DNA from: Limnochorda sp. LNt
GTDB lineage: Bacteria; Bacillota; Limnochordia; Limnochordales; Geochordaceae
DNA length: 64,000 nucleotides
Assembly (NCBI RefSeq): GCF_035593265.1
Contig: NZ_CP141614.1
Span: 2,418,001-2,482,000, forward strand
Reading direction: 5' to 3'
The position numbers and the translations under genes are program-made. Below, piece by piece: positions 38,064 through 46,467 of the stretch. Below the pieces are notes generated by a model. The model was given only the letters and a program-made list of their open reading frames with translations. It made no database searches and was not told where the DNA came from. How positions within the stretch are numbered: the first letter of the stretch is position 1; the number at the start of each line of letters is the position of its first letter.

Positions 38064-39251
38064 ATGACCATCGCGTTCTTCTCCGACAGCTACACGCCCT
38101 ACGTCTCCGGCGTGGTGCAGTCCATCCGGCTGACGGCCCGCGCCCTGACCCGTCTGGGCCATCAGGTCATCGTCGTGGCTCCGGCTTATCCGTCCCACGA
38201 CGCCCACCAGCCCGACGAGACCGGTGCCCTGGTGCTGCGGTTGCCCTCGGTGCCCGCGCCGGGGCAGCCCGTCTTCCGCATCCCGCTGCCCTGGCGGCGA
38301 GCGCTGCGGCCGCTCTTGGGGCGACGCCTCGACGTGGTACACGCGCACAGCCCGTTCCTCACCGGCGGCCTGGCCCGGTGGATGGCCCGCCGGCACCGGG
38401 CCCCCTTGCTCTTCACCCACCACACGCTCTACCACGAGTACGCCCACTACGGGTTGTTGCCCGCGTGGGCGCTGGTGCCGACCATCCTGCGGCGCGTGGG
38501 GGCGTTTTGCCGGGCGGTCGACTGCGTCGTCGCCCCCACCCCATCCATCGCGGCGCTACTGCCGCGTCTGTACGGCTCGACGGCATCCGTCGAGGTGATC
38601 CCCACCGGCCTGGAGTTGCGAGCCTTCCGCGAGGCGGACCCCACGTGGCTGCGGCAGGCCCTGGCCATCCCTGCGGACGCCCCAGTGGTCTTGCACGTCG
38701 GCCGCCTCGCACGCGAGAAGAACATCCTGGTCCTGATGCAGGCGCTACGCCATATCCTCGACGAGATGGCGTCGGCTCACGCGGTCGTGGTGGGAGGGGG
38801 GCCCTTCCTGGCCCAGCTGCACCGAGCCGCTAGCGAGCCGCCCTTCGCCGGACGGCTGCACGTGGTCGGTCCGGTGCCGCCCCATGCGGTGCCGCGCTAC
38901 ATGGCCGGAGCCAGCCTCTTCCTGACGGCCTCCACCACCGAAACCCAGGGGCTGGTGGCCGTGGAGGCCATGGCGGCGGGGCTGCCGGTGGTGGCACCGC
39001 GCGCCGGCGGACTGCCGGACGTGGTCACCGACGCGCAGCAAGGGTGGCTGACCGAGCCCGCTGCGGTCCCTCTGGCCCGCGCCGCGCTCCGCCTGCTCGC
39101 CGATGCCTCCACGTGCCGTGAGATGGCGCACCGGGCGCGGCAACGCGCCGCCGACTTCGACGTGGAGACGACGACCCGGCGTTTGCTGGCCCTCTACGAG
39201 ACGCTGCGGACCGGTCCGCTCACCGCCAGCCCCACGCGGCAGGGGCCCTAG
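38064..39251 (+). CDS. GT4-family glycosyltransferase
   Basis: The 395-residue protein is a GT-B-fold retaining glycosyltransferase. The N-terminal lobe has FFSDSYTPYVSGVVQSIRLTARALTRLGH, VHAHSPFLTGGLARW and FTHHTLYHEYAHY. The C-terminal lobe has VLHVGRLAREKNILVLM, and the donor-site TETQGLVAVEAMAAGLPVVAPRAGGLPDVV with its E-x7-E. It most resembles transferases that glycosylate diacylglycerol or phosphatidylinositol, so glycolipid synthesis is likely but unproven. GAAAGGG precedes the ATG. Confidence 0.9.
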   Translation: MTIAFFSDSYTPYVSGVVQSIRLTARALTRLGHQVIVVAPAYPSHDAHQPDETGALVLRLPSVPAPGQPVFRIPLPWRRALRPLLGRRLDVVHAHSPFLTGGLARWMARRHRAPLLFTHHTLYHEYAHYGLLPAWALVPTILRRVGAFCRAVDCVVAPTPSIAALLPRLYGSTASVEVIPTGLELRAFREADPTWLRQALAIPADAPVVLHVGRLAREKNILVLMQALRHILDEMASAHAVVVGGGPFLAQLHRAASEPPFAGRLHVVGPVPPHAVPRYMAGASLFLTASTTETQGLVAVEAMAAGLPVVAPRAGGLPDVVTDAQQGWLTEPAAVPLARAALRLLADASTCREMAHRARQRAADFDVETTTRRLLALYETLRTGPLTASPTRQGP

Positions 39252-39256
39252 CCACC

Positions 39257-40639
39257 CTAGCGCGCCAGGCGCCCCCGGCGCGGCGTGCGCTGGCCGCGGC
39301 CAGCGGCCGTGAGGCGCCGCACCGCCGATTGCAGCGTGCGCCGGGCCCGGTCCGATGGAAGGCGCGGGTCCTCCAGCGCCTGGCGCAGGACGGCCACCGC
39401 CCGGCGGTCGCCGTAGTCGGCCAGGGCGGCAGCCACCTCCAGCTTGCCCTCGTCATCCCAGCGCAGCCGCTGGAAGAGCTCCACCAGTGCGTGAAAGGTC
39501 TGGTCGCTCCTCGGCATGCGCACCAGCAACTCGACCAGGGCCGACCCTGCCGAGAGGCTGGGTGCCCGCTGCACGTACTCCCGCACCGCGTCGATGGCCA
39601 GGTGGCCCATGCGCTCCAGCGCCGCCCGGGCCTCCCCCGCCACCATCCCGGGCACCACGGGGTCGGTAGCCAGCTCCACCAGGCGAGCCACCACCTCGTG
39701 GCGACGCAAATGGGCCAGGGCACGGATGGCGCCCGCCACGGCCACCGGCCGGGCACCCGGCCCGTCGAGCAGGTGGCGCGCCCTCACGGTCACCGCCAGG
39801 AGGGGCAGCACCTGCTCGCTCATCCTTTCCAGCGAGGCCAGGGTGGGCGGGTCGAGGGTCCCCGGCCCATCGAAGATCCGCTCCACCAGGGCGTCGACCG
39901 GGTCGGTCGGGCATGCCGTAGGGGGCTGCCAGGCGTCCCGCAAGACGGAGCGCCGGCGGCGAAACGCATCCAGGTCCACCACGGCGCGCACCGGCGGGGA
40001 CCGGCGCCGCTCCTCCTCGATGGGCGCCCAGGGAAACGACGGCACGGTGGAGGCCAGGTGGGCGACCATGTAGCGCAGCCCCGTCACCCACAGCTGGAGG
40101 CGGCCGTCCACCAGGTCGGCCCAACGGGGGCGCAGGGTGCGCCCCCGCAGCATGAGCGCGCCCGCCTCGCCGACGCGGTCCAGGGCCGCCTGCGGGTCCC
40201 GGTCCATCAGCCCGTGCCCGGCGGCCACCAACTGGTCGACGGAGCTCTCCATGTCGTAGTCGCCGTGCAGGTAGCGGGAGAAGGCCAGCAGGTAGGCCGA
40301 GACCCGTTCGCGCAGCATCCAGCACCCGACCCGCAGGAAGACCTCGGCCACGGCCTGCACGTCGGCCGGTGCCGAGGGATCGGCCAACCGATGGGGAAAC
40401 TCGTCGACCACCTCGCGTACCGACGCGAAGGCGTCCTCGGCGGCGGCGTCGCCCTCGAGGCAGGCCGCGGCCAGGGTGGAGACGATGAGCCCCTCCAGGG
40501 TCCCGGCGTAACCGGCCAGCATCAGGTCGCGGTCGTAGAAGAGCATGCTGTCCCGGATGTCCACCAGGGTCGCGACGAAGCCCTCGTACGTGCTCGTCGC
40601 CTCCAGCCTGCTCAGCAGCTCCCGGTAAGCCGATGCCAA
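39257..40639 (-). CDS. HEAT-repeat protein of unknown function
   Basis: The 460-residue all-helical protein from TTG 40639 (GGGGGAAGAGGG upstream; a GTG at 40663 lacks a ribosome site). The C-terminal third has HEAT/PBS-lyase-like repeats (AGAIRALAHLRRHEVVARLVELATDP, GEARAALERMGHLAIDAVREYV, LEVAAALADYGDRRAVAVLRQALEDP). The N-terminal part is helical and unrecognised. No signal peptide. Such repeats usually bind proteins. It is on the same strand as the rRNA methyltransferase gene upstream and convergent with the GT4 gene, five bases away. Confidence 0.75.
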   Translation of the reverse strand: MASAYRELLSRLEATSTYEGFVATLVDIRDSMLFYDRDLMLAGYAGTLEGLIVSTLAAACLEGDAAAEDAFASVREVVDEFPHRLADPSAPADVQAVAEVFLRVGCWMLRERVSAYLLAFSRYLHGDYDMESSVDQLVAAGHGLMDRDPQAALDRVGEAGALMLRGRTLRPRWADLVDGRLQLWVTGLRYMVAHLASTVPSFPWAPIEEERRRSPPVRAVVDLDAFRRRRSVLRDAWQPPTACPTDPVDALVERIFDGPGTLDPPTLASLERMSEQVLPLLAVTVRARHLLDGPGARPVAVAGAIRALAHLRRHEVVARLVELATDPVVPGMVAGEARAALERMGHLAIDAVREYVQRAPSLSAGSALVELLVRMPRSDQTFHALVELFQRLRWDDEGKLEVAAALADYGDRRAVAVLRQALEDPRLPSDRARRTLQSAVRRLTAAGRGQRTPRRGRLAR

Positions 40640-40682
40640 CCCTCTTCCCCCTACGCCGCCCACGGCAGGGCAGTCGCCGGCT

Positions 40683-41852: not shown

Positions 41853-41935
41853 CCGAGCATGCCTCCCTCGACGGCTTGGATGCCGGCCTCGCGGTGTGAT
41901 ACGCTTCACGATGGAAAGGGGCCCTCGTCCGGATC

Positions 41936-42790
41936 GTGCGCACGGAGACCGAGATCGTCATCGGCGCCGATTCACCTTGGGCGGGCACCCCCTGCACCCG
42001 CTGCGGTCAGGCCCTGGCGGAGGGGGACCGGGCGGTCATCTGCCCGCGCTGTCGAGCACCCCACCACGCCCGATGCTGGATGGAAAACGGCGGCTGTGCC
42101 CGTACGGGTTGCCGCCAGGTGGCCGTCGCGGTGGTGCTGCCCGCCAGCGAGCGGCCGCGCTCGGCTGCGCCGCCCCCCCTGCCCTGGTGGCGACAGCCCG
42201 CGGTCATCGGCGGGATCGGGCTCGTCGTGGCCGTGGGCCTGTGGCTCGTCGTCACCGCCGCCCGTCCCGCCAGCGCACCGGTGGCGACGCTGCGCGTCAT
42301 GACGTGGGCCGGTCTCGAGGAGGCCGACGCGCTGGAGGAGCTGGCGGCCGAGTTCGAGGCCGACCACCCGGGCGTCGATGTCCGGCTGGACCTGACGCCG
42401 ACGCTGGCCTACGACCAGAAGCTGATCATCCTCATCGCGGCCCGCGACGCTCCCGACGTGTACGCCCTCGCTCCCGAAAGGGTGGAGCTCTTCGCCCGGC
42501 AGGGGGCCCTCCTCGACCTGACGCCGCGGTGGGAGCAGGCGCCACCGGATCTGCGGCAGGCTCCCTGGAGCCCTCGCCTCGACGAAGCCACCGTCGACGG
42601 GCGTCTGTGGGGGCTGCCGCACCCCTTCACCCGCGGCGCCCTGGTCATCTCCAGCCAGTCGCAGGTCCCCGACCTGGCATGGGAGTGGGTCCTGCGAGTG
42701 ATGCGCCGGCTGCCGCCGGCCACGTCGCCGCCCGAGGTGCCGCAGCCCACCCTGCCGGGCGGCCTGCCCATCGGGGTGCCGGGCTCGTAG
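41936..42790 (+). CDS. RING-finger / membrane helix / solute-binding-domain fusion
   Basis: The 284-residue protein joins three parts. Residues 20-59 form a cysteine/histidine array (C20xxC23, C36xxC39, H43 H44, C47, C54, C59) that reads like a prokaryotic RING or treble-clef zinc finger. One membrane helix spans about 88-107. Residues 117-284 resemble the first lobe of an ABC solute-binding protein (ATLRVMTWAGLEEADALEELAAEFEADHPGVDV, APDVYALAPERVELFARQGALLDLTP, VDGRLWGLPHPFTRGALVIS) but stop short of the second half. A cytoplasmic zinc domain joined to an external half binding-domain suggests a sensor. No partner is adjacent. The start is GTG 41936. Confidence 0.8.
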   Translation: MRTETEIVIGADSPWAGTPCTRCGQALAEGDRAVICPRCRAPHHARCWMENGGCARTGCRQVAVAVVLPASERPRSAAPPPLPWWRQPAVIGGIGLVVAVGLWLVVTAARPASAPVATLRVMTWAGLEEADALEELAAEFEADHPGVDVRLDLTPTLAYDQKLIILIAARDAPDVYALAPERVELFARQGALLDLTPRWEQAPPDLRQAPWSPRLDEATVDGRLWGLPHPFTRGALVISSQSQVPDLAWEWVLRVMRRLPPATSPPEVPQPTLPGGLPIGVPGS

Positions 42791-43737: not shown

Positions 43738-46467
43738 ATGCGCCTGACCCGAGTCGCCGCCTTCCTGGTCGTCCTGGCCCTGGTGGGGCCGACCGTGCTG
43801 TCGCGTACCCCCAGCGGCCTGGCCATGTCGACGCCGGTGCACGACAGCGCCCCGAGCGCGATCCCGTCGGCCACCGACGAGCAGGTCTGGCGGGCGCCGG
43901 TCGCTCCCGGGATCGACCTGGTGGTGGTGCGGCGCCTGGACGGCGAGGGCTGGGTCGACCTCTTCGCCCTGGTCGCCGACCTGGACGCCACCGGGGTGCG
44001 GGCCGACGCCCTGACGGGCCCCACGCTGACGGAGCTCGCACCCACCAGCGAGCTGGCCCGTCGAGCCGGGGCGGTGGGCGCCATCAATGGCGACTTCTTC
44101 CACCTGGGTACGACGGGAGCCCCGGTCGGCCTCGTGGTCAGGGACGGCCAGCTCTGGAAGAGCCCCTACCCGGGTGGGCGGCCGTCGGTGGCCATCCTGG
44201 AGACCCCCTCCGGCCCGCGGGCCTGGGTGGGCCGCTTCGCGCTGGAGGCCTCGCTGACCGTGGTGGCAGGGCCCGACGGCCGCAGGCCGGACGGCGTCTC
44301 GCTATCGGTCTCGGCGGTCAACGAGCCCGCCCTGACGCCCGGCCAGATCGGCGTGTACGACGAGCGATGGGGGGCCGCCCCCCTGCCACTGGGCCGCTGG
44401 CCCATCGCCGAGGTGGCTCACCTCGTGCTGGAGGCGGTCCCCGGGTCCGATTCGCTCTGGGTGGTCGCCGGCCAGGGGCCGGGCCTCCCCTCCCGGGGCC
44501 CTGCGCCCGGACGCATGGTGGTGCTGGGCTGGCGGGCAGGCGCCGAGGCGCTGCGCTCGGGCCTGCTGTCGCCGGGGACCATCCTGCGTTTCACCGCGCG
44601 CGCGGTGCCGCAGCATCCCCAAGAGTGGCCGGCATGGGCCGAGGGAGCTCGCTTGCATGCGGCGGTCTCGGGAGGTGCCGTCATCCTGAGGGGCGGCCAT
44701 CCCCAGGTGGAGCAGGGCCAGCCGGGCGACGCCCTGTCGCGCCACCCCCGCAGCGCCCTGGGGGTGGGCCGGGACGGCCGGCGTCTGGTCCTGGTCGCCG
44801 TCGACGGGAGACGCAGCACGAGCCGGGGCATGGACGTGGGCGAGCTGGCGTCATGGCTGCTGCGGCTGGGCGTCACGGACGCCGTCAACCTCGACGGCGG
44901 CGGCTCGACCAGCCTGGCCGCGCGCCTCGGCCCCGAGGGGCCTCTCCTGGTCAACCTCCCGTCGGACGGCGCCGAGCGTGCCGTGCCGGTGGCGCTGGGG
45001 CTCTTCTACGACCCGCCCGCGCCTCCCGAGCCCGCGCCGTTCGTGCTGCAGCCCGTGTTGCCTCAGGTCTCGAGGCCGCCCTGGACCGGCGGCTACGTCC
45101 TGGGCCCCCAGGGTCTCGTCACGGCCGCCGGGGTCGCCTCCCGCATCGCCACCTACCCGCCCCTCGACGCCGACGAGCTGCTCTGGGTGGTGGACCCGGC
45201 GGACCTGGGCTTCTTCGCCGAGCCAGGCACCTTCGTGGGGTTGCGCCCGGGCACGGGGCGCGTCGTCGCGCTGCAGGCACCACCGTCGGCGAGCTGGGCC
45301 TACCTCCACCGCATGGCCGCCCCGCCCTCCGAGGACCCGCTCCGCGCGCTCCTGCAGGACGGACCCTCGTCCCCGGCCGTGGCCGCCAGCCTCCCCGTGG
45401 AGGTCGTGGGCCGTCCGGTGGCCCTTCGTGTGGAGCCATCGCCCCTGCGCCTGGTGCCGGGCCTGGAGGTGCCGGTCTCGGTATGGCTGATCGACGAGGA
45501 GGGGCGCCGCGCCCCGGCCGACCCGTCCTCCGTCACCCTGTGGGTGCAGGGCGGCGCGGAGGGGACCGCCCGGGACGGGGTCGTGAGCGCGCGACCGCTA
45601 CGGCTGGCCGCCCAGCCGGCCACGCTCGAGGCCCGCTTCTTCGGCCTGTCGGCCAGCGTCCCCATCGAGTGGCTGGAGCAGCCCGAGCCGGCGGCCGCGG
45701 CGTCGCCGTCCGCCGCCATCGCGTCCCCGGCGGTTCGTCCTGCCGGCCCCCCCATGGCCCCCGTACCGGCCGGGTCGGCGGCCCCCAGCGCCGATGCCAC
45801 GACCCGGGTCGCCGTCCTGGGCAGCCTCCCGGCCACCGAGGCCCTGACGTGGCTCTCCGAGTGGCTGGCCGGAGTGGAGCCCGGACTGGTGCTGGCCATC
45901 GTCCGGTCGAGCGCCCCCTGGGAGCCCATCGATCGCTCGGCCGTGACCCTGCGGGCGCTGGGCTGGCCCGTCGCTGCGGCGTTTCCGGAAGGCCCCGGGT
46001 CACCCCCGCTCGGGCCGCTGGTCTCGCTCCTGGGCTCGCCCAATGCGGTGGCGACCCGAGGGTCGCTGCGCACGCTGGTCGTCCACCCGTCGACCGTCTC
46101 GTGGCCATGGCTGGCGGGCCAGATCCAGCGCGCCGTCTCGGAGCAGGCGGTGGGATTGCGGCAGCTCGTGGTGCTGGTCTCCGACTCTCCCCTGCGCTGG
46201 CGGGCCCGTCGAGAGGCCGAGATGCTGCTGGGATGGCTGGCCGCCGCCCGACGGGCCGGTCTGGAGACCTGGATCGTCTACGGCAGCGATCGCGCGGAGC
46301 TGTCGGTGATGGAGGGCGTCCGCCTCCTGGGAGTGCCGCCGCTCGGCCAGGAGGGGGGTGTGGTGGTCCTCCAGGCGGGCAGCTCGGGGATCGGGTTGCG
46401 GGTGCCGCACGAGCCGGGCCCGGCCCTGCGGGTGCCGGCGGCCGCCGCGGCCTCGGCCGCCGGCTGA
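43738..46467 (+). CDS. Secreted phosphodiester glycosidase-family protein, large
   Basis: The 909-residue protein has a signal peptide (RLTRVAAFLVVLALVGPTVLS). The NAGPA/phosphodiester-glycosidase domain spans about 50-420, with GAVGAINGDFFHLGTTGAPVG, VLVAVDGRRSTSRGMDVGELASW and DAVNLDGGGSTSLAAR, the catalytic-site signatures. Such enzymes cleave sugars from phosphodiesters, for example in cell-wall polymers. A beta-rich middle part and a Pro/Ala linker (about 645-680) follow. The last 220 residues (VAVLGSLPATEALTWLSEWLAG onwards) look like a phosphoesterase-type alpha/beta domain, but I find no metal-ligand motifs. A family fusion with a metallophosphatase is known; here that part seems degenerate. 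Confidence 0.85.
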   Translation: MRLTRVAAFLVVLALVGPTVLSRTPSGLAMSTPVHDSAPSAIPSATDEQVWRAPVAPGIDLVVVRRLDGEGWVDLFALVADLDATGVRADALTGPTLTELAPTSELARRAGAVGAINGDFFHLGTTGAPVGLVVRDGQLWKSPYPGGRPSVAILETPSGPRAWVGRFALEASLTVVAGPDGRRPDGVSLSVSAVNEPALTPGQIGVYDERWGAAPLPLGRWPIAEVAHLVLEAVPGSDSLWVVAGQGPGLPSRGPAPGRMVVLGWRAGAEALRSGLLSPGTILRFTARAVPQHPQEWPAWAEGARLHAAVSGGAVILRGGHPQVEQGQPGDALSRHPRSALGVGRDGRRLVLVAVDGRRSTSRGMDVGELASWLLRLGVTDAVNLDGGGSTSLAARLGPEGPLLVNLPSDGAERAVPVALGLFYDPPAPPEPAPFVLQPVLPQVSRPPWTGGYVLGPQGLVTAAGVASRIATYPPLDADELLWVVDPADLGFFAEPGTFVGLRPGTGRVVALQAPPSASWAYLHRMAAPPSEDPLRALLQDGPSSPAVAASLPVEVVGRPVALRVEPSPLRLVPGLEVPVSVWLIDEEGRRAPADPSSVTLWVQGGAEGTARDGVVSARPLRLAAQPATLEARFFGLSASVPIEWLEQPEPAAAASPSAAIASPAVRPAGPPMAPVPAGSAAPSADATTRVAVLGSLPATEALTWLSEWLAGVEPGLVLAIVRSSAPWEPIDRSAVTLRALGWPVAAAFPEGPGSPPLGPLVSLLGSPNAVATRGSLRTLVVHPSTVSWPWLAGQIQRAVSEQAVGLRQLVVLVSDSPLRWRARREAEMLLGWLAAARRAGLETWIVYGSDRAELSVMEGVRLLGVPPLGQEGGVVVLQAGSSGIGLRVPHEPGPALRVPAAAAASAAG

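Follow-up and report, generated by a model that had tools for sequence, protein, structure and literature searches.

Limnochordia encode a real, conserved bacterial membrane protein in which a prokaryotic RING-type zinc finger, a single transmembrane (TM) helix and a domain related to the solute-binding proteins (SBPs) of ABC importers are joined in one reading frame. The representative analyzed here is encoded in a stretch of 64,000 nucleotides (the window) from the single-contig, 3.02-Mb genome of Limnochorda sp. LNt, where a genuine open reading frame with a GTG start occupies positions 41936..42790 of the plus strand and specifies 284 amino acids. The SBP-like ectodomain is one complete lobe of a protein that ordinarily has two, which suggests that a module for sugar capture has been converted into a sensor or adaptor of the envelope. 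Tentatively, and at somewhat short of an even chance, we favor the view that this fusion is a sensor or adaptor for envelope glycans or glycolipids, equipped with a cytosolic RING docking module, over a part in ABC transport.

Architecture, conservation and topology

From N- to C-terminus, the protein comprises a Prok-RING_1 zinc finger, one TM helix and an SBP_bac_1 ectodomain (Pfam). Both recognizable halves, which a reading made from the nucleotide sequence alone (the sequence-only reading) had assigned to this frame, score above the curated Pfam cut-offs: Prok-RING_1 (PF14446) matches residues 17-58 (E 2.6e-12; 46.9 bits versus a cut-off of 29.1), and SBP_bac_1 (PF01547) matches residues 129-213 (E 1.3e-12; 48.7 bits versus a cut-off of 26). 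The AlphaFold2 model of the protein, with 31 homologues as input, has a mean pLDDT of 89.4.

A search of related genomes recovered RING and SBP domains in one frame, mostly as full-length matches, in 46 of 61 Limnochordia genomes, and the same fusion is present in one genome from another class of the phylum (G226). Forty-one fusion loci were taken for closer study, in which the fusions are single predicted frames of about 254-427 amino acids. The three-part order of RING, helix and SBP domain, as originally proposed, is kept within one gene across orthologues, and neither a half without a profile match nor orthologues with the RING and SBP halves in separate genes were found. One open frame across genomes also rules out a sequencing error or a gene split as the origin of the fusion. 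In an alignment of 31 members, the invariant columns (C20, C23, C36, P37, R38, C39, H44, C47, W48, C54, G58 and C59) all fall within the RING. The sequence-only reading knew of no described system joining these domains in this way, and our search of the open-access literature, a scope outside which the 2011 survey of prokaryotic RINGs falls, likewise returned no description of RING-SBP fusions or of single-lobe SBPs.

The single TM helix, which had been placed at about residues 88-107, occupies residues 88-108 in the AlphaFold2 model (42197..42259, plus strand), in agreement with hydrophobicity, and is predicted to be oriented with its N-terminus inside; every member has one hydrophobic peak at this position. 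Lysine and arginine are richer on the RING side of the helix in 27 of the 41 members, and the ectodomain is free of cysteine in 38, a pattern that fits a cytosolic RING and an external ectodomain. Limnochordia are diderm (PMC11456536), so that the ectodomain would face the periplasm.

One complete SBP lobe

The chain of a MalE-type SBP contributes two segments to lobe 1, one N-terminal and the other after lobe 2. Two lines of comparison assign both segments to the ectodomain. The model of residues 116-264 (42281..42727, plus strand) superposes on 3uor over 146 residues (2.3 A, Z 19.9); the match runs from chain residue 27 to 342 and skips about 170 residues that correspond to lobe 2. In profile alignments (hhalign), residues 226-262 of the fusion family pair with the second lobe-1 segment (SBP columns 310-336) at a score of 40.4, versus a best of 18.1 among 200 column shuffles, placing the returning strand and helix at residues 235-258 (42638..42709, plus strand). 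Lobe 2 is missing in 41 of 41 fusion members. As the profile, structure and shuffle tests agree, the ectodomain is the whole of lobe 1 of a CUT1/MalE-type SBP, built from both discontinuous segments, and no fragment; lobe 2 is cleanly absent. The earlier description of a lobe-1-like domain ‘without the rest of that fold’ was therefore correct as to the lobe but inexact as to its extent, since residues 235-258 return to lobe 1 and complete it.

The fusion shares the sequence and fold of lobe 1 with CUT1/MalE-type SBPs (SBP_bac_1, PF01547), but differs from them in having no lobe 2, lipobox, signal peptide or transporter operon, and in being anchored through a RING-bearing N-terminus. It lacks two defining features of an ABC-importer SBP, namely a second lobe to close on the ligand and, among the conserved neighbors that were identified, transporter genes. 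With the two-lobe cleft gone, classic ABC capture is impossible by that route.

One feature of the lobe bears on ligand contact. BLASTP against E. coli MalE (E 6e-5) pairs R182 (42479..42481, plus strand), a hallmark of the single-lobe group, with Arg66, which contacts maltose on the N-lobe. An equivalent arginine occurs in 34 of 42 fusion ectodomains, in all eight single-lobe lipoproteins and all four f23 proteins described below, and in two of 17 sampled two-lobed SBPs; among the 41 fusion members, it is lost in eight. Retention of R182 suggests that the sugar-facing edge of the single lobe is still in use.

Single-lobe relatives without a RING

Relatives lacking the RING were sought by a profile search across 398 genomes of the phylum. 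The first two groups are single-lobe SBP lipoproteins of 174-224 amino acids, consisting of a lipobox and lobe 1, which form families f64 (six genomes) and f97 (two genomes). These lipoproteins have the same lobe-1-only domain as the fusion, complete with its return segment and a counterpart of R182, but they lack the RING, are anchored by a lipobox and are encoded in a cell-envelope gene cluster. Genes of family f64 are located between transketolase genes and those encoding FtsE, FtsX, a PcsB-like M23 hydrolase and a CtpA-type S41 protease. Upstream of the f64 genes lie those for DUF5693, a polysaccharide pyruvyl transferase (CsaB-type) and a WecG/TagA glycosyltransferase. The f97 genes adjoin those for CtpA and a polysaccharide deacetylase, the lobe and CtpA genes not being separated by FtsEX. 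That the lipoprotein genes lie in envelope clusters may reflect the general synteny of those lineages. Single-lobe lipoprotein loci comprise L154-L160, L162-L168 and L174; two of the proteins were tested, and neither matched any NCBIfam model.

In a third class, f23 (L170:2550-3653, L171:4697-5761, L175:683-1804 and L176:4410-5564), about 160 further residues form a domain C-terminal to the single lobe, with no clear Pfam match in the two proteins tested; YetF/DUF421 and DUF4363 genes lie nearby in two of the loci.

A tree built from lobe-1 sequences has a branch (95/80) of which one side consists of the 17 two-lobed SBPs, a small sample picked by similarity to the fusion protein. This is the pattern expected of a single loss of lobe 2, and one origin of the single-lobe domains is thereby suggested.

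The RING finger

The RING/treble-clef zinc finger (residues 17-60; 41984..42115, plus strand) is defined by its Prok-RING_1 match, its invariant ligands and its own structural model; the Prok-RING_1 cut-off is likewise exceeded by fusions in other lineages. Eight zinc ligands are predicted, in cross-brace order: C20 and C23, C36 and C39, H44 and C47, C54 and C59. All nine of the cysteines and histidines that had been listed as the zinc-binding array are present, and eight of them are likely ligands; the ninth, H43, was rejected as a ligand because it is replaced by glutamine in four of the 41 members, whereas H44 is invariant. As the structure search with the whole model covered the ectodomain only, the RING was modeled separately (pLDDT 91.9). 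The nearest solved folds to this model are the RING-H2 fingers of RNF38, RNF13 and RNF12, all of them weak matches (Z about 7, Foldseek E about 0.05).

In other lineages, the same finger has RDD-like, DUF1292-like or zinc-ribbon membrane parts as partners, and in one case an ABC ATPase (partners named by eye). The passage of PMC4029887 that cites Burroughs 2011 describes a TM segment for the Prok-RING_1 family, which the fusion resembles in this respect and in a finger that scores well above the curated cut-off. It differs from these other membrane proteins in its ectodomain, a single SBP lobe in place of the partners just listed. Attachment to so many unrelated partners argues for the finger being a general docking module.

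Proposed role and alternative explanations

In the role that we favor, the fusion would act as a single-pass inner-membrane adaptor or sensor; the one-component membrane sensor suggested by the sequence-only reading is thus far a plausible candidate. Its periplasmic part, one MalE-type lobe now without the second lobe needed for closing over a ligand, would most likely bind an envelope glycan, a glycolipid head group or a partner bearing one, through the edge near R182 that formerly faced the sugar. On the cytosolic side, the RING would most likely be a zinc-stabilized protein-docking module that relays or anchors, and no ubiquitin ligase. We infer the topology, the glycan contact, the direction of signaling and the RING partner from these comparisons.

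An envelope glycan is proposed because the RING-free relatives lie in envelope clusters, because R182 (Arg66 in MalE) is kept, and because five loci have a GT4 glycosyltransferase gene following that of the fusion. These five GT4 homologues (in families f13, f15, f8 and f16, outside the window) follow the fusion gene directly on the same strand, with gaps of -22 to +18 bp in four loci and, in the fifth (L049), an overlapping frame whose start is uncertain. They match alpha-monoglucosyldiacylglycerol synthase best, with a score short of the family cut-off, as does the GT4 gene of the window itself (38064..39251, plus strand). In most loci the fusion gene stands alone, with neighbors on the opposite strand, so that a connection with glycans draws its support from a minority of the fusion loci and from the RING-free relatives. 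The loss of R182 in eight of the 41 fusion members also counts against it.

A broader proposal, about which we are rather doubtful, is that lobe 2 was lost once and that the resulting single SBP lobe constitutes an unrecognized class of envelope module in the Bacillota. In cell-wall clusters it would serve as a lipoprotein and, in Limnochordia, which are diderm, as the ectodomain of a TM receptor whose RING output would couple envelope glycan status to the cytoplasm. If this were true, a bilobed sugar-binding protein could be reduced to one lobe that persists as a stable stand-alone module for envelope sensing, and prokaryotic RINGs, whose roles in bacteria are mostly unknown, would gain a receptor-like example that is widespread in a diderm lineage, some members of which are in culture. 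The stand-alone lobe is a small, testable domain, in which R182 is the obvious residue to mutate.

The best-surviving alternative, though in our judgment an unlikely one, is a protein-only scaffold, in which the lobe would bind a periplasmic protein (for example of the FtsEX, PcsB or CtpA type) without any glycan and the RING would bind a cytosolic protein. A lone lobe without a closed ligand site would suit such a function, as would the FtsEX, PcsB-like and CtpA genes that adjoin the lipoprotein relatives; RING/treble-clef fingers, moreover, often serve in docking, and Prok-RING_1 occurs in fusions with many unrelated membrane parts. Conservation of the Arg66 equivalent across three architectures, however, would be unexpected if the sugar edge were idle, and in the f97 loci FtsEX does not intervene between the lobe and CtpA genes.

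Regulation of a CUT1 sugar ABC importer is quite unlikely as a role for the fusion. Here the lobe would dock at the N-lobe site of the permease, and either compete with the real SBP or report occupancy to the RING, an idea consistent with the CUT1-type fold of the ectodomain and with the many SBP_bac_1 proteins in these genomes (at least 31 in many). Yet no ABC importer gene is found among the identified conserved neighbors of the fusion loci, and the RING-free relatives occur in cell-wall clusters instead of sugar operons. The fusion is also kept where SBP_bac_1 matches are few (five in G054, six in G060, seven in G051 and eight in G029) and is missing from G005, which has at least 31.

The sequence-only reading had raised ligand-controlled protein modification as a possible function. 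Such a ligand-gated, E3-like enzyme would be analogous to the eukaryotic PA-TM-RING ligases, among them RNF13, one of the RING-H2 E3 fingers to which the RING model is weakly matched, and the layout of ectodomain, TM helix and RING is similar: both have a binding domain on the luminal or extracellular side, one helix and a cytosolic RING. In the fusion, however, the order is reversed and the ectodomain is unrelated (an SBP lobe and no PA domain). The positions at which RING E3s contact their E2s are a hydrophobic residue after M1, Trp at M6+4, Pro at M7+1 and Arg after M8; in the fusion, Trp is found in none of the 41 members, Pro in none, and the final Arg linchpin in eight. Neither UQ_con nor Prok-E2_B was matched in any of the 61 genomes, a search in which the control genomes gave no match either. 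Not all prokaryotic RINGs are ubiquitin-related (PMC4029887). With the E2-contact Trp and Pro lacking in all 41 members, a ubiquitin-ligase role for this RING is unlikely, and we regard the enzyme reading as a whole as very improbable.

An artefact or a decaying fusion, which the merely partial SBP match might suggest, is already refuted by the orthologues, given a single frame kept in 46 genomes, invariant zinc ligands and confident models.

Other features of the loci

A gene encoding a HEAT-like protein with a match to the archaeal DUF2150 is located in the window at 39257..40663 on the minus strand. Of the 41 loci, 25 have a homologue close to the fusion gene, and 35 of the 61 genomes of the class carry one. 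This neighbor was rejected as an obligate partner: f5 and f11 have the HEAT-like gene without the fusion, and f4, f6, f7, f10, f12 and most of f8 show the reverse. A second HEAT-like neighbor, found in other families, is not homologous to the first (hhalign probability 3.6%).

Several further RING-bearing proteins were noted by eye. In L089, a Prok-RING_1-like finger shares one frame with an apparent amino-acid-type ABC transporter ATPase; in L087 and L091, a DUF1292-like acidic domain precedes a C-terminal Prok-RING finger; and L080, L088, L140 and L141 encode RING-bearing membrane proteins with RDD-like or zinc-ribbon plus multi-helix parts. Genomes G017 and G028 carry second RING genes, which belong among these other RING-bearing membrane proteins.

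Elsewhere in the window, positions 43738-46467 (plus strand) encode a protein of 909 amino acids that combines a NAGPA phosphodiester glycosidase domain with long additional regions. Only 26 bp (41909-41936) separate the start of the fusion gene from that of a divergent RlmI-like methyltransferase gene, so that the promoters of these two genes probably overlap coding ends.
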